A DNA stretch of 64,000 nucleotides from positions 1 to 64,000 of the forward strand of contig JADZDM010000014.1 of the NCBI GenBank assembly GCA_020851035.1. Reading direction: 5' to 3'. The notes under the pieces are model-generated. The model was not told where the DNA came from. It saw nothing but the letters and a program-made list of their open reading frames with translations, and made no database searches. Numbering within the stretch: the first letter of the stretch is position 1; every line of letters starts with the position of its first letter. This document shows, one piece after another, positions 8,848-32,178 of this stretch. The stretch comes from Gemmatimonadaceae bacterium. Lineage in GTDB: Bacteria > Gemmatimonadota > Gemmatimonadetes > Gemmatimonadales > Gemmatimonadaceae. Both the position numbers and the translations under genes were made by a program.

Positions 8848-11010
8848 GTGCCCAAGGCCGATAACGCCGCCCCGTCCGCCCCGAAGGTCACCCGCAACCA
8901 GCAGGTGGTCCTCACCGCCCCGCCCACCGTGGCGGCGATGGTCTCGCTCGTCCAGCCCGCCCTCGAGCGGCTGCCCGCCGGATCGGCTGGGGTGCATCTC
9001 GTCATCCTCGTGCCCGACGCCGATACCGCGCTCGCCGTGGCGCAGGCCGTCCTGCCCGCCGGCGATGCCGCGCCGGTGCTGGTGCCCATGACCTCCGCCA
9101 CTCGCGGCGCCCGCCTGCTGGCCGGCAAGCCCGCGGCGATCGTCGGGGCGCCCGCCGACCTGGCGGCGCTGCTGCCGAGCGGCCTGCTCAAGCTCGAGGG
9201 GGTCACGCAGCTCCTCGTGCTGCAGGCCGACCTCACCCTCGCCCTCGCCGACGAGCCGTCGATCACGACGCTCATGACCGAGCTGCCGAAGGACATCGCG
9301 CGCACGCTCACCATGGCCGGCGAGACCGATGCCGTGACGGCGTTCGCGAAGGCCTACATGAAGCGCCCCCGCCGCGTGGGTGACGACGTGATGGCCGAGG
9401 GCAGCGCCCCGGTCAGTGTGCACTACGTGCTGACCAGTGCCGCCACGCGGCCGGCCACGCTCCGGCGTGTGCTGGATGCCGTCAATGCACCGTCGGCGGT
9501 GGTCGTCGCGGCCGAGCCGGCGCAGCTCGCCGAGGCGGGTTCCGCTCTCCGCGCGCTGGGATACGACGCCGCGCAGGGTGACGTGCAGGCCACCGCCGGC
9601 CCGGTCACCGCGCACAGCGTGCTGCGCGTGCTCTACGACGTGCCGGCCTCCCGCGCCGCACTCGACGCCGCCATCGGTGGTGCCCCGGTGCAGGTGATCG
9701 TGCTCGTCACGCCGCGCCAGGTGCCGCACCTGCGCGCCCTGCTCGCCGGCGGGTCGCTCACCTTCTTCATCCTCCCCGACACCATGGCCCATGCCGTGGG
9801 CCGCGACGGCGCCCGCATGGGTGAGCTGCGGAAGATCCTCGCCGAGGGCGTGAGCGCCCGCGAGCTCGCCGCGCTCGAGCCGCTGCTGGACGAACACGAC
9901 GCCATGGAAGTGGCCGCGGCGGCGCTGCGCCTGCTGGAGCGCGAGCGTGAGACGGCGAAGGCCCTGCGCATCGGTGTCACCACCGCGCAGCCGAAGGACG
10001 TGAAGCGTGCCCTGGCAGCGACGGCCGCGCAGGACGCCGGCGCCGCCCCGATGACGGCACCGGCACCGATGGCAGCCCCGGCGCCGACGGCACCCGCCGC
10101 ACCGTCGCCGATCGCCGCGGACGGCACCCCGCACGAGTTCGTGGTGCTGTGGCTCAACATCGGCAACGATGACGGCGCGACCGCCTCGTCGTTCGTCGGC
10201 GCGATCACCGGTGAGACCGGCCTCGATCGCAGCGTCGTCGGCAGCATCGACCTCCGTGACAGCCACACGCTGGTCGAGGTCTCGGGTGCACACGCCGAGC
10301 AGATCGTGGCCGCGATGAACGGCACCACCATGCGCAACCGGCAGGTGATCGCCCGCATCGATCGTGTCGGCCCGATGCGCACCACGCGCAGCGCGCCGGC
10401 CGGCCGCGGCGGTGATCGCCCTGGGGCAGGCCGCAGCAGCGGCGGCTTCTCGCGCGATCGTGGCGATCGTCCGGCGCGTCCGTCCTTCCGCCGCGACGAG
10501 GGTGATGCGCCCCGCGAGCGCAGCGGCTATCCGCGCCGCGACGCCGGTGACCGGCCGGCCCGGCCGTCGTTCTCGCGCGATGATCGTCCCGCGCGTCCGC
10601 CGCGTGAGGGAGGCTTCTCGCGCGACGAGCGTCCGGCGCGCCCGTTCAGCCGCGACGACCGTCCTGCACGGCCGCCGCGTGAGGGCGGCTTCTCGCGTGA
10701 CGACCGCCCGGCCCGTCCGTTCAGCCGCGACGACCGTCCCTCCCGTCCGCCGCGCGAGGGTGGGTTCTCGCGTGACGACCGGCCGGCCCGCCCGCCCCGC
10801 AGCGGAGGCTTCAGCCGTGACGAGCGTCCGGCGCGGCCTGCCGGTGGTGGCTTCAGCCGTGCCCCGCGTGACGCGGGCGCCCCGACCAGCCGCGGCTTCA
10901 CCCGCGACCGCGGCGACGCCCCGTCCGGCCCGCGCACCGAAGGCAACGACTTCGCGGAGCGTGCCGAGCGCCTGCGCAATGCGCGCAAGCCGTCACGCAC
11001 GGAGGACTGA
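8848..11010 (+). CDS. Degenerate DEAD-box-like protein with DbpA RNA-binding domain and Arg-rich repeat tail
   Basis: About 720 aa from the GTG at 8848 ([13 protein letters not shown]); no better in-frame start exists because upstream sequence is antisense to aspC. Residues ~15-420 follow the layout of two RecA-like helicase domains, but key motifs are missing. There is no Walker [13 protein letters not shown] stands where TPGR would be, LLVLQADLT replaces VLDEAD, and the HRxGRxGR motif is not present. Residues ~430-505 ([20 protein letters not shown] to IARIDRVG) match the DbpA C-terminal RNA-binding domain. The last ~200 residues are a low-complexity, Arg/Asp/Pro-rich tail. The likely role is ATP-independent RNA binding, perhaps as a ribosome-assembly or RNA-chaperone factor; this is inference. 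tdk follows by 5 bp. Confidence 0.72.
10435..10925 (+). repeat. Coding repeats, [10 protein letters not shown] units
   Basis: Within the C-terminal tail of the degenerate helicase, units of the form (G/P)FSRD(D/E)RPARP recur about eight times, with shorter FSRAPRD and FTRDRGD variants near the end. Spacer sequences alternate between PPREGG and nothing, giving a two-unit higher-order period. The DNA is repetitive as well (GGCTTCTCGCG and CGTCCGGC recur), so length polymorphism between strains is expected. Confidence 0.9.
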
Positions 11011-27758: not shown

Positions 27759-29306
27759 GTGTCAACCGCCTCCGCTCCACCCGCCCGCGCGGTCACCGCG
27801 TCGGACGACCGCGCCTTCTTCGGCCATCCACGCGGCCTGGGCCTGCTCGCCGCCGCCGAGATGTGGGAGCGGTTCTCGTACTACGGCATGCGCGCCATCC
27901 TCGTGCTCTACCTGACGAGGGCGCTCCACTGGTCCGCCCAGGATGCGTCGCGACTCTACGGGGCCTACACCGGCGCGGTCTACCTCACCCCCATGATCGG
28001 CGGCTACCTCGCCGACCGCTATCTCGGCACCCGCCGGTCGCTGGTGCTCGGGGGCGTGATCATCGCGCTCGGCCACTTCATGCTGGCCATCGACAGCATG
28101 ACGTTCTTCTACGCCGGCCTCGTGATGGTCGTCATCGGCACCGGCTTCTTCAAGCCGAATGTCTCCACCATGGTCGGCCAGCTCTACGCGGAGGGCGACC
28201 CGCGACGCGACGCCGGCTTCACGATCTTCTACAGCTGCTTCAACTTCGGCGCCTTCCTCGCCCCGCTGGTCTGCGGGTTCCTCGCCGAGGACGAGCGGTT
28301 CGGCTGGCATCTCGGCTTCGGCGCCGCCGGCGTCGGGATGGTCCTCGGCCTGATCGTCTACCTGCTCGGCCGCGACAAGTACCTCCCCGGCATCGGCCTC
28401 GTCCCCGATCATCGGCACGATGCGGAAGAGCGCGCCGAGATCGCCGAGCTGGGCATCCCGTCGTACGGCCGCAACGCCGCGCTCGGCGCCACCGGCGGTG
28501 TGGTGCTCGCGACGCTCGCCTCCGTCGGCACCTGGTCGCAGGTCGGCATCCCGACCTGGCTCTTCTCGCTGTCCGGGCTCATGTCGCTGCTTTACGGCGT
28601 GATCATCGGCGCCGCCTTCACCGTCGCGGTGCTCGGCACGCAGGGTGAGGAGCGGAAGCGGGTGTGGGCACTGGTGATGGTCTCGACGTTCGTCGTGTTC
28701 TTCTGGCTCGTCTTCGAGCAGGCGGGCAGCTCGCTCACGCTCTTCGCCGATCGCGACACCGACCGCTCCTTCGGGATGTTCGGCATCGACACCATCCCGG
28801 CAAGCTGGTTCCAGAGCATCCAGCCGCTCTGCATCATCCTCCTCGGCCCCTTCGCCGGCTGGTTCTGGCTCTACCTCAGCAAGCGCGGGCGCGAGCCGGC
28901 CACCACGATGAAGATGGTGTACGGCCTCTTCCTTGCCGGACTGGGATTCTTCCTGCTCTACTTCGCCGGCCGCGCGGTGGATGCCGGTGACAAGGTGTCG
29001 CCGCTCTGGCTCATCGGGGCCTATCTCTGCCACAGCTTCGGTGAGATCGCCCTCTATCCCGTCGGCCTGAGCTACGTCACGAAGGTCGCACCGGTGCAGT
29101 TCGTGTCGCTGCTGATGGGCACCTGGTTCCTCGCCATCTCGGCCGCGAACTTCCTCGGTGGCTTCCTCGCCGGCCTGATCGACGAGATCCCGAGCCGCGC
29201 GACCTTCTTCACCATCCCCACCGCCACCGCCTGGGGCGCCGGCGTGCTCATGCTGCTCTCCGTCCCGCTGCTCCGCCGGCTCACGCGTTCCGTCCCGGCG
29301 GCATAG
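27759..29306 (+). CDS. POT/PTR2-family proton-coupled peptide transporter
   Basis: 515 aa from a GTG at 27759. The proton-coupling E-x-x-E-R motif is present (AEMWERFSYYGMR), then GGYLADRYLGTRRSL and the PTR2 signatures GTGFFKPNVSTMVGQLY and FYSCFNFGAFLAPL. About 12-14 membrane helices are expected. It imports di- and tripeptides with protons. The length is typical for bacterial POTs. The gene is five bases behind the ABC ATPase, a rare pairing of an ATP-driven and a proton-driven peptide importer in one unit. Confidence 0.93.
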   Translation: MSTASAPPARAVTASDDRAFFGHPRGLGLLAAAEMWERFSYYGMRAILVLYLTRALHWSAQDASRLYGAYTGAVYLTPMIGGYLADRYLGTRRSLVLGGVIIALGHFMLAIDSMTFFYAGLVMVVIGTGFFKPNVSTMVGQLYAEGDPRRDAGFTIFYSCFNFGAFLAPLVCGFLAEDERFGWHLGFGAAGVGMVLGLIVYLLGRDKYLPGIGLVPDHRHDAEERAEIAELGIPSYGRNAALGATGGVVLATLASVGTWSQVGIPTWLFSLSGLMSLLYGVIIGAAFTVAVLGTQGEERKRVWALVMVSTFVVFFWLVFEQAGSSLTLFADRDTDRSFGMFGIDTIPASWFQSIQPLCIILLGPFAGWFWLYLSKRGREPATTMKMVYGLFLAGLGFFLLYFAGRAVDAGDKVSPLWLIGAYLCHSFGEIALYPVGLSYVTKVAPVQFVSLLMGTWFLAISAANFLGGFLAGLIDEIPSRATFFTIPTATAWGAGVLMLLSVPLLRRLTRSVPAA

Positions 29307-29329
29307 TCACCAGGTTCGTTTCGCGGGCT

Positions 29330-29800
29330 GGCATCGTGGACAGTGTTCATGCGGAAGGCATGGATCACGGAACGGTCGGGCGCCTCGTGTCGGTCCGTGT
29401 CGTTTGGGAGATCGTCAACAGGGTTCACGCGGAAAACGCGGAAAGCGCGGAAACGTTCTACCGGATCGCGAGCGTCCATGCAGCCCGGCCTGCTGGAAAT
29501 GCTGTAGGAACTGCGGGCGCGGTTTCGCAGTTCCTACAGCATCTCGTCACTTGCACAGCCACCGACGCCCGCGACCCCGGCTGACCTTTTCCGCGTTTTC
29601 CGCGTTTTCCGCGTGAACCCTGTTGAAGATCTCCCGAAGGGCACCGACCACCGCCGCGCGAAAGAACTCTCCGTGATTCACGCGTTTTCCGCGTGAACCT
29701 TGTCGACGATCTCGCGAAGGGCACCGATCACCGCCACGCGAAAGAACTTTCCGTGATTCCGCGTTCTCCGCGTGAACACTGTCGACGATGCCACCATCAC
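29330..29800. repeat. Palindromic intergenic repeat cluster
   Basis: Between the POT gene and the BamA-like gene there is no coding sequence. On the right side, an ~80-bp unit is repeated (29605-29684, 29685-29763 and a partial copy from 29764), each starting TTTTCCGCGTGAAC and containing GATCTC and CGAAGGGCACCGA. On the left side, 29340-29453 is an inverted, degenerate version of the same unit. The two arms 29410-29453 and 29587-29631 pair almost perfectly (GTTCACGCGGAAAACGCGG on the left). A separate hairpin sits in the centre. The arrangement looks like a non-autonomous mobile element or a REP/MITE-type family. Confidence 0.8.
29499..29542. terminator. Central hairpin of the palindromic cluster
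   Basis: A perfect 17-bp inverted repeat (29499-29515 and 29526-29542; ATGCTGTAGGAACTGCG on the left) with a 10-base loop lies between the two long arms. It could act as a terminator for the POT gene, ending 190 bp upstream, or form the core of the repeat element. There is no T tract. Confidence 0.55.
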
Positions 29801-29828: not shown

Positions 29829-31580
29829 CTAGAACGAGAACAGGTTCGTGATCAGCGACCGCTCGCGCGCCCGGCGCGTCTCGTCGGGATCCTGCCAGAA
29901 GATGCGCGTGAAGTTGCCGGAGGTCAGGCGCACCTCCCAGTTCCCGGAGCGCTGGTCCGGGTTCAGCGCATACACCAGGTCGAAGCGGTAGACCACGCGC
30001 GAGCGGGGCGGCACCGAGAAGAGCACGCTGGTGCCGAGTGACGACCGGAACGGCGTCTCGACGCCGTATGGCGCGCGGCCGGCCCACAGCTTGCCCGTCT
30101 CGAAGAACGCCGCGCCGCCCACGTCGCCGAAGCCCCACGGCCGGCCGAAGACGTGCCGCTGCTCGCCACGCAGGATCACGCGGCTCTGTCCTCCCTCGTA
30201 CGACTCGCGCAGGCCGCGCACGCCCACCCGCGACGCGCCCAGCGGCACCTGGAACGGCACCCGCACGTCGTTGCCGCCCGTGTACTCCACCGAGCCGATC
30301 GTCGTGGACTTGAGCGACGGCTTCACGTAGGCCGCCGTCCGGCCCGTCACCAGCCGGCCGTCCCAGCCGCTGCTGTGTGACTTGCGCCCCGAGAAGATCC
30401 ACTCCGAGCCCACGAACACCTTGTCGGTGCCCCACCCCGCGTACGCATCCCCGGACACGAAGAAGTCCGAGGTCGTGATGCCGCGCAGCTTCACCGGACG
30501 GCCGAACTGCCCGCCGAACTGCACGCCGATGCGGAGGTCCTGCACACCCGTCAGCGCGTCGAACCCCTGCACCGGAAGGAACCGCAGCGCGCGGCCGCCG
30601 AAGAGCAGGTTCATGCGCGTGATCTTCTGCGGCGGTGCCGGCAGCACCGGCAGCGCCTCGGCGAACGACACCGCGCCACTGTCGGTCACCAGCACCGCCC
30701 CACCCACGTCCTCCCCGTCATAGCTCACCGAGGCGCCCGCCAGCAGCAGGGCACCCGGCCGGCCGATCCGGGCCACGCCGCCGACCGAGGCGAAGCTCCG
30801 CTTCACGCGCTGGTACGGCAGGCCGCCGCTGTCGCGCAGGAAGCGCACGTAGTCGTCGTCGCGCCCCACCAGCGCGCGGAAGCCGAAGCGCTGCAGGTCG
30901 GTGTAGAACGGGTAGCGCACCTCGGCATCGGCGCGGCTGCCAAGGCCGTAGCGGTTCCAGGCCACGCTGCTCTGGATCGGCCGGCCGAACGTCACGGCCG
31001 TCCGCATCCGCATCGTCCGGCCGTCGCGCAGCGCGCCGTTGCTGCGCCACCCCACCTCGAACAGCACGCCGCGCCCCATCAGGTTCGAGTTGCCGATGGT
31101 CAGCCCACGCAGGTTGGTGCCGCTCACGTTCGCCCCGAGGATCATCGCTACTTCGTCCACGGTCGCCACGATCAGCTGCACGCCATCGCCGTCCGGGTAC
31201 ACCAGCACCCGCGCATCCTGCAGGAACCACTGCGCGCGCAGCACGCGCTCGGTCTCGCGGCGCTTGATCTCCGTGCACAGGTCACCCTCGCGGAACTGCA
31301 CGAACTCGCGGATCACGCTGGCCCGCGAGTCCGCGTGGAACTTCCGCACCAGCCCCGTGATCAGCCGCGACGACGCCGAGCGGCCGCCGAACTCCGGGCC
31401 CATCGGCTCGATCGAGATCTTCGTGATCCGCTGCCCGAGGCAGCGCTTGAGGGTCGTGTCGGCGCTGGTGATCACCGTCGTCGTCGGGGGTGGCGGCGAC
31501 GGTGTGGCCGGCGGCGTGACCTGGGCGGTGCCGCGCGTGGCAAGCAGGGCACCGGTCACCAGCAGGAGCCAGCGCCTCAT
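29829..31580 (-). CDS. BamA/TamA-superfamily outer-membrane protein
   Basis: 583 aa from the ATG at 31580. A Sec signal (MRRWLLLVTGALLATRGTAQ) is followed by a Pro/Thr linker. A POTRA-like module comes next, around residues 50-140 (ITKISIEPMG, FREGDLCTEIKRRETERVLR, DARVLVYPDG), and then a β-barrel region. The last residues NLFSF end in Phe, the usual outer-membrane insertion signal. Only about one POTRA is visible against five in BamA and three in TamA, so this is a divergent member, perhaps for assembling or exporting one substrate. It is coupled to the preceding coiled-coil gene by an ATGA overlap. Confidence 0.7.
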   Translation of the reverse strand: MRRWLLLVTGALLATRGTAQVTPPATPSPPPPTTTVITSADTTLKRCLGQRITKISIEPMGPEFGGRSASSRLITGLVRKFHADSRASVIREFVQFREGDLCTEIKRRETERVLRAQWFLQDARVLVYPDGDGVQLIVATVDEVAMILGANVSGTNLRGLTIGNSNLMGRGVLFEVGWRSNGALRDGRTMRMRTAVTFGRPIQSSVAWNRYGLGSRADAEVRYPFYTDLQRFGFRALVGRDDDYVRFLRDSGGLPYQRVKRSFASVGGVARIGRPGALLLAGASVSYDGEDVGGAVLVTDSGAVSFAEALPVLPAPPQKITRMNLLFGGRALRFLPVQGFDALTGVQDLRIGVQFGGQFGRPVKLRGITTSDFFVSGDAYAGWGTDKVFVGSEWIFSGRKSHSSGWDGRLVTGRTAAYVKPSLKSTTIGSVEYTGGNDVRVPFQVPLGASRVGVRGLRESYEGGQSRVILRGEQRHVFGRPWGFGDVGGAAFFETGKLWAGRAPYGVETPFRSSLGTSVLFSVPPRSRVVYRFDLVYALNPDQRSGNWEVRLTSGNFTRIFWQDPDETRRARERSLITNLFSF

Positions 31581-32122
31581 CAGCGCCCCATCTTCCGTTT
31601 CAGCTCCGCCAGCCGCTCGTCGGCGGCCTGTGCGCGTGCCGCATCGTCCAGCCCGCGATACTCCGACGCGTCGGCCCGGTCGGGCGCCGGCGCCCCCGGC
31701 GCCTCGCTCCCCGGTGCCGAGGGCGCCGGCCCGATCCCCGTCACGCCACGCAGCTCGGCCTCCATCGCCGACACCGTCTGCTCGGCCAGCGACAGCTCCT
31801 CCTCCTGCACCCCGAGCTTCCGCTCCAGCAGCGAGACCGTGCTGCGCTGCGTCTCCGCGAAGCGCTCCGCCACCGCCACCGTCTCCGTGTCGTCGATCTG
31901 CCGCGCCAGGTCGCTGCGGCGCAGGATGGTCGCCAGCTCGGTGCGAGCCGCCGCCAGCCGTTCCCGCGATGTCGCGCAGGCCTTCCGCACGTCGTCGCGC
32001 GCGAGGCGCGCCACGGCCAGCGTCTGCTTCATTTCCGCCAGCTGGCGGCGCGAAGATGGATTGCCGAACGACGACGACACCGGGGCGCTGGGAAACGGGG
32101 ACTGGGATGCGACGATGCTCAC
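31580..32122 (-). CDS. Coiled-coil protein of unknown function
   Basis: 180 aa from a GTG at 32122; a TTG at 32155 is possible and no strong ribosome site decides. Residues ~30-135 are strongly helical and heptad-like (RQLAEMKQTLAVARLARDDV, EELSLAEQTVSAMEAEL), followed by a Pro/Ala-rich linker and a short helix ADERLAELKRKMGR. No signal peptide or catalytic motif is seen. The stop overlaps the start of the BamA-like gene, so the two probably act together. The family is not recognised. Confidence 0.6.
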   Translation of the reverse strand: MSIVASQSPFPSAPVSSSFGNPSSRRQLAEMKQTLAVARLARDDVRKACATSRERLAAARTELATILRRSDLARQIDDTETVAVAERFAETQRSTVSLLERKLGVQEEELSLAEQTVSAMEAELRGVTGIGPAPSAPGSEAPGAPAPDRADASEYRGLDDAARAQAADERLAELKRKMGR

Positions 32123-32178
32123 GCCAGAGTACCCACGCGTGCAGCATCGCCGCAACCGCTATGCGCGCACCAGGACCG

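Follow-up and report, generated by a model that had tools for sequence, protein, structure and literature searches.

The window, by which we mean the whole 64,000-nt stretch of DNA analysed, holds a nested palindrome at positions 29329–29793, and the question that this locus raises is what kind of element it is and what has multiplied it. The first-pass annotation took it for a mobile repeat, possibly a non-autonomous transposon or a regulatory RNA pair, an interpretation that is partly supported by the results below. We consider it somewhat probable that the palindrome is a non-autonomous, REP/MITE-like copy of a selfish family that is spread and homogenised by a putative GxxExxY nuclease. 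The window's own genome (4.97 Mb) is referred to as G000, and two sister genomes of the same genus as G001 and G002.

Build and genomic copies of the palindrome

The palindrome consists of a core hairpin within inner arms within outer arms, and it lies between convergent reading frames. The features are as follows.

27900–29306, plus strand: upstream POT-family (PTR2) transporter gene, part of the reading frame (27900–29303 matches PF00854, E 1.8e-69)
29329–29355, plus strand: outer left arm (TGGCATCGTGGACAGTGTTCATGCGGA), 25/27 complementary to 29767–29793
29411–29453, plus strand: inner left arm, with the end motif ATCGTCAACAGGGTTCACGCGG and then 9-nt units like CGCGGAAAA, 41/43 complementary to 29588–29630
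29496–29515, plus strand: left half of the core hairpin (holds ATGCTGTAGGAACTGCG), 19/20 complementary to 29526–29545 with a perfect run of 17 bp
29526–29545, minus strand: right half of the core hairpin, pairs with 29496–29515
29588–29630, minus strand: inner right arm, pairs with 29411–29453
29590–29669, minus strand: first unit of about 80 nt (arm plus spacer) on the right side, from repeat comparison and TRF
29670–29749, minus strand: second unit of about 80 nt on the right side (an extra arm), 86% alike to the first
29767–29793, minus strand: outer right arm, pairs with 29329–29355
29829–32147, minus strand: large downstream ORF, convergent with the transporter gene

The long arms and the perfect 17-bp hairpin described by the first-pass annotation are both present; the inner arms, given there as about 44 bp, are complementary at 41/44 positions at that width and at 41/43 at their best width. 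Its opposed direct repeats of about 80 bp hold in outline. They are clear on the right side, where TRF reported a period of 80 with 2.4 copies and 89% matches, whereas the left side has fewer units: arms start there at 29329 and at 29411, a spacing of about 80 nt, and two stretches of that side, 110 and 88 nt long, were 77% and 75% complementary to stretches on the right. The string TTTTCCGCGTGAAC, with up to two mismatches, occurred four times in the window against 0.30 expected, a count reached in none of 100 shuffles. The folding z-scores of the palindrome (−14.2 and −16.8 on the two strands) are what any long palindrome would give. An Rfam scan of the window gave no match at the gathering threshold, and the last 590 codons of the downstream ORF had no Pfam match at E 0.001. 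Two other repeat tracts were seen in the window, a CRISPR-like array at 1–907 (repeat with GCTTCAATGGAGCCGCTCGTTGACCTGAGCGGAAAC, period of about 72) and tandem repeats of 75 and 45 nt, rich in CGTGACGACCG, at 10576–10832.

The annotated repeat unit is not confined to this locus, the outcome by which the annotation would have been refuted: it had 22 exact occurrences in G000, and its reversed control was absent. A DNA search of the same genome yielded at least 65 matches, a lower bound obtained by scoring 40 of 75 first-look candidates, which were grouped by hand into at least 25 places, three of which have just the core hairpin. By eye, many of these copies are about 215 bp long and run from arm through spacer, core hairpin (GTAGGAACTGCG...CGCAGTTCCTAC or alike) and spacer to arm, and nesting like that of the window copy recurs at C12:161.5k and C1:201.0k. 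In two of the core-only places, a window-type core is enclosed by arms that have a different flavour (GCAAAGG). Cores related to that of the window were found in other copies in G000 and in copies in G001 and G002, where matches with at most one mismatch numbered 36 and 95, respectively, against 2 and 15 for the reversed control.

At C21:439208–439800, the hairpin is replaced by an ORF, and the arms are identical to each window arm at 39/43 positions. Hairpin copies and gene copies thus have their arms in common, and this gene-bearing copy, together with the dispersed gene-less ones, supports the annotation's view of a repeat family with a non-autonomous look. The encoded protein matched TIGR04256 (GxxExxY) with E 1.7e-37, at 128 bits against a curated cut-off of 35, and PF13366 (PDDEXK_3) with E 2.6e-37. 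Four GxxExxY genes are present in G000. By eye, three of them lie within inverted arrays, of flavours CGCGGAAAA, ACGCAAGG, and GGGGCGGA, and the fourth (L081) lies just beside, not inside, a CACGGAGG pair.

The GxxExxY protein is predicted to have a PD-(D/E)XK nuclease fold, a prediction that draws on a structural model and on the D...ExK residues of the superfamily. D67, E77, and K79 were invariant in 68 aligned sequences (of 84), and an AlphaFold model built from the 68-row alignment reached a pLDDT of 94. The best structural matches of the model were of the restriction-endonuclease-like fold, with Z-scores of 9.5 for SSO0001 (4ic1), 8.8 for 3ijm, 6.8 for Hjc (1gef; only 5.7–6.8 across the Hjc chains), and 6.5 for Cas4 (4r5q). 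An identity as a known defence system was considered and rejected, as the PADLOC matches were weak (RTasPDDEXK of DRT at 6.3e-6 for L081 and 0.028 for L079; Cas4b at 0.025 for L080). The PHROGs matches were also weak, the best being 1e-4 (L081).

Arms around GxxExxY genes in other genomes

To compare gene-bearing loci across bacteria, the best 80 of at least 575 GxxExxY matches were taken, of which two were dropped because of short flanks; the titles of the 80 include Verrucomicrobiota, Pseudomonadota, Geobacter relatives, Cyanobacteria, Planctomycetota, and Bacteroidota. One Hymenobacter-derived query had no match in E. coli genomes. Scored as a local inverted repeat between the 300-nt flanks of the gene, the median was 24 for these 78 best-matching loci. 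The 920 cross pairs had a median of 12, and the 61 far-flank controls had one of 11 and a maximum of 16, which 67 of the 78 loci exceeded. The value of 16 was also reached by 25% of the cross pairs, because arms are alike from one locus to another. In the window's own family, 18 of 30 GxxExxY loci scored above 16, as did one of 26 far controls. Most of the GxxExxY genes examined are thus enclosed by paired arms; a pair above the control level was absent from 11 of the 78 and 12 of the 30 loci. One GxxExxY gene of genome G017 (L306) has no arm pair of the 9-nt type, and a different one in that genome has arms of a flavour unlike its common one. Among the 58 of the 78 loci scored for this, the median arm length was 28 nt and the period 8, at which lag the identity was 0.55, whereas the hairpin elements of G000 and G017 have a period of 9. 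The flavours vary widely, as in CGCGGAGA, CACAGAGGA, CGCAAAGG, CAACGGCG, and GACAGGAT.

At one site, the arms could be compared while the position of the gene stayed constant. In 20 of the 80 loci (the best of at least 575), 17 of them titled Sphingomonadales, fabG starts just after the GxxExxY gene (e.g., L093, L099, and L100, and also L287). On the other side of the gene lies fabD, as annotated in L287 and as judged by eye in several more loci, and in sphingomonads the copy sits inside the fab operon. The gene looks fixed at this position. Left and right arms of the same locus agreed at 24.68 of 27 positions across 19 of the 20 loci (one lacked an anchor, and L107 was kept with a left anchor that looks misplaced). 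When the right arms were shuffled among loci, the agreement was 19.34 ± 0.75, with a maximum of 22.0 in 2000 shuffles. The left and right arms therefore covary at a fixed site and, by eye, a change in one of the three units at a locus tends to be shared by the others.

Arm flavour is also genome-specific in the three sister genomes. The left–right arm score averaged 18.5 between copies of one genome against 9.3 between genomes, the latter free of the filter of at least 12 by which pairings were listed; the same-copy mean of 20.4 is inflated by that filter, and some elements entered more than one of the 26 pairings (17 from G000, eight from G002, and one from G001). By eye, G000 and G002 have the element at two orthologous sites, with related cores and quite different arms, the second of these sites being split over two contig ends in G002. 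G001 lacks the element at both (by eye), and its site orthologous to that of the window is about 80 bp long, also with the element absent. The element-less sites belong to other species (67–85% identity), so their state may reflect deletion. In G002, the site orthologous to that of the window is occupied by other palindromic arrays; by eye, the palindrome there (L173, about 1360–1740) differs from that of the window, and its outer inverted repeat lies around AGGTCGGGGAGGCCGGAGAGTGCG. The GxxExxY gene has been long-lived at one site both before fabG and, by eye, at the position shared by G000 (C2) and G002 (C104), and in this respect it looks domesticated as much as mobile.

Across 148 genomes of the window's family, the arm pattern CRCRGAGRNCRCRGAGR had 2673 matches and its reversed control 280, with pattern counts per genome from 0 to 733. 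GxxExxY was present in 102 of these genomes. A net count of at least 8 was found in 35 of the 102, against one of the 46 genomes without the gene (Fisher p 6e-6; p 4e-4 at a threshold of 16), p values that are optimistic because the genomes share ancestry and differ in completeness. Arm-rich genomes are thus statistically linked to GxxExxY, which 35 of the 36 carry. The clear exception is G092, a draft (94% complete) with 33 arm matches, in which no GxxExxY was detected, also with profile A2 in a search run without a positive control; G007 and G087 are weaker exceptions, for which the same kind of search found none.

The strongest rival explanation, which we regard as unlikely, makes GxxExxY a guest that homes into, or is retained in, palindromes made and homogenised otherwise, by replication slippage, template switching, or host recombination. 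Gene-less arms are abundant in the same genome, G092 has arms and no detected gene, and L081 lies outside its arm pair, all of which such a guest would explain; the near-universal presence of the gene in arm-rich genomes and the covariation of arms around it at the fabG site argue against it.

The complementarity could instead be kept at the RNA level for transcript folding, as a terminator, for RNase III processing of an inserted gene, or for mRNA stability. The convergent genes on either side of the window copy and the position of the sphingomonad copy within an operon fit this, but we find it improbable. On the gene strand, the arm mismatches in the 58 of 78 scored loci comprised 30 of the wobble type and 32 of the A·C type, with no G·U preference, a result that favours a cause at the level of DNA over one at the level of RNA, and a flavour shared genome-wide is not explained by selection on pairing alone. 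Together with the absence of an Rfam match in the window, this leaves the proposed regulatory RNA pair without support.

A more doubtful possibility still is a REP/BIME-type repeat moved by a Y1 (RAYT/TIRYT) transposase that recognises a GTAG-bearing core. The window core does read GCTGTAGGAACTGCG, with the GTAG tag, and G000 has three Y1_Tnp genes, but in the stretches examined neither an arm-type match nor the core string GGAACTGCG was found near them. Two of these genes are flanked by unrelated inverted repeats (GTTCAAGGGGACGGAGATC and GGTGACAGTGCACTCATTTCCG), and the third lacks a clear one; the gene at C25:162628–163846 (L076) sits between long inverted clusters of GTTCAAGGGGACGGAGATC, like published TIRYT genes. 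G001 and G002 gave no Y1_Tnp match, yet they contain many cores. In G000, the tag is GTAG in many copies and differs in some. Among the copies shown from the sister genomes, most in G001 have GTGG (L260 has GTAG) and most in G002 have GTTG. Across the family, a net arm count of at least 8 was found in nine of 24 genomes with Y1_Tnp and 27 of 124 without (p 0.12); a threshold of 16 gave p 0.046, whereas a threshold of 4 gave no association (p 0.15).

That the palindromes are old, immobile, inert spacers or terminators is very improbable, given genome-specific flavours and counts that range so widely within one family, even though two sites are common to G000 and G002 and no target duplication was seen.

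Nesting and the proposed route of spread

Concentric nesting was quantified in 380 kb of G017, the genome with a pattern count of 733, where 58 arrays, 20 plus/minus pairs, and one minus/plus neighbour pair were found. Defined as at least one correctly oriented unit no more than 75 nt outside the element, outer units were present on both sides of 10 of the 20 elements, on the right only of two, on the left only of none, and on neither side of eight; a unit on one strand was found in 4.7% of random 67-nt windows. Together with the window copy, this nesting points to the apex of an existing element as the place where a new one arises. Target-site duplications, which the annotation had proposed to look for, were seen neither in the 19 G017 copies tested of the 20, whose ends are approximate, nor by eye in the window, and the highest value for direct repeats (0.56, at k 5) stems from a TTGAAC/GTTCAA palindrome. 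Excision or new insertion events were not seen in the genomes compared. Insertion into host hairpins was also considered and rejected, since extra complementarity outside the ends was weak (p 0.022, from 12 usable copies of 18, with at least one end misplaced).

In the selfish family that we favour, a member would be an inverted pair of arms around either a short hairpin core, as in the window, or a GxxExxY gene, each arm apparently composed of an end motif (GTTCACGC in the window) and about three units of 8–9 nt. The nuclease would recognise the arms, probably as an extruded hairpin or cruciform and partly via the repeated unit, and would cut at them. Repair would then copy arms from one locus to another and from one side of an element to the other, whereby most arms in a genome would converge on one flavour. 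It would also seed new copies, with a preference for the apices of palindromes already present, and would so give the nested "Russian doll" layout of the window.

We advance more tentatively the general proposition that GxxExxY elements are a form of selfish DNA, widespread in bacteria, that needs no transposase to move and in which a structure-specific PD-(D/E)XK nuclease would cut armed palindromes, repair would copy arms within and between loci, and new copies would land in old apices. Selfish DNA of this kind is apparently unreported. If the proposition is true, concerted evolution ties the arms to one another and perhaps to the nuclease, and intergenic arrays of the CTCTGTGTCCTCTGTG type, seen beside GxxExxY in several phyla, would be its footprint. 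GxxExxY genes, which occur in many phyla, gain a specific and testable partner in the inverted arrays and gene-less palindromes.

Comparison with known systems

In the open-access literature searched, outside which most subscription journals and preprints lie, there was no account of a link between GxxExxY and such arms or of the function of GxxExxY, and the longer arm strings did not occur. GxxExxY is named in two of the papers, once in each, and a 12-letter arm string recurs in 12 others. According to the accessible part of one report (PMC3090145), a Bacteroides fragilis primer upstream of BF2782, near the invertible promoter of a polysaccharide (capsule) locus, contains the arm-like CTCTGTGTTCTCTGTGGTG. 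The "multicopy nucleotide sequences" of Geobacter (PMC2996986, PMC2700814) are likewise intergenic families of palindromes or short direct repeats; the accessible portions of these papers report no partner gene and no link to GxxExxY, and the comparison made here is one of description.

Hjc, Cas4, and related PD-(D/E)XK proteins share the fold predicted for GxxExxY, and Z-scores below 8, as for Hjc and Cas4, may mean only a common fold and imply no function. The REP/REPIN/BIME repeats associated with RAYTs, as described in the accessible part of Di Nocera 2013 (PMC3733652), are likewise numerous short extragenic palindromes with genome-specific variants and opposed clusters. The partner here, however, is a PD-(D/E)XK protein and not a tyrosine transposase, and the arms are long and made of 8–9-nt units. 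A RAYT is flanked by the same repeat, unlike the three Y1 genes of G000 in the stretches examined, with no Y1_Tnp match in G001 and G002; its repeat has a conserved GTAG tag, whereas the tag is not retained in the sister genomes, where most of the copies shown have GTGG or GTTG. TIRtrons, with their TIRYT gene between long terminal inverted repeats and, in some species, scattered repeats of the same family (PMC3733652), resemble the gene-bearing copies. Some of their terminal repeats share GGGGWSAS (PMC3733652), from which the repeat GGGGACGG at a G000 Y1 gene differs at one position; this repeat is TIRtron-like and unrelated to the palindrome arms.

MITEs share with the present elements the non-autonomous look, the inverted-repeat ends, and the possession of ends in common with a gene-bearing copy: the elements occupy at least 25 places in G000, the window arms are 43 nt long, and the arms recur around a GxxExxY/PDDEXK_3 gene. 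In contrast to MITEs, that gene belongs to no transposase family, no target duplication was seen in the copies examined, and the arms are replaced in concert. Should the nuclease be what drives the arms, repeats would have a route of spreading distinct from those of transposases and reverse transcriptases, with a covariation that is readable across large numbers of genomes.
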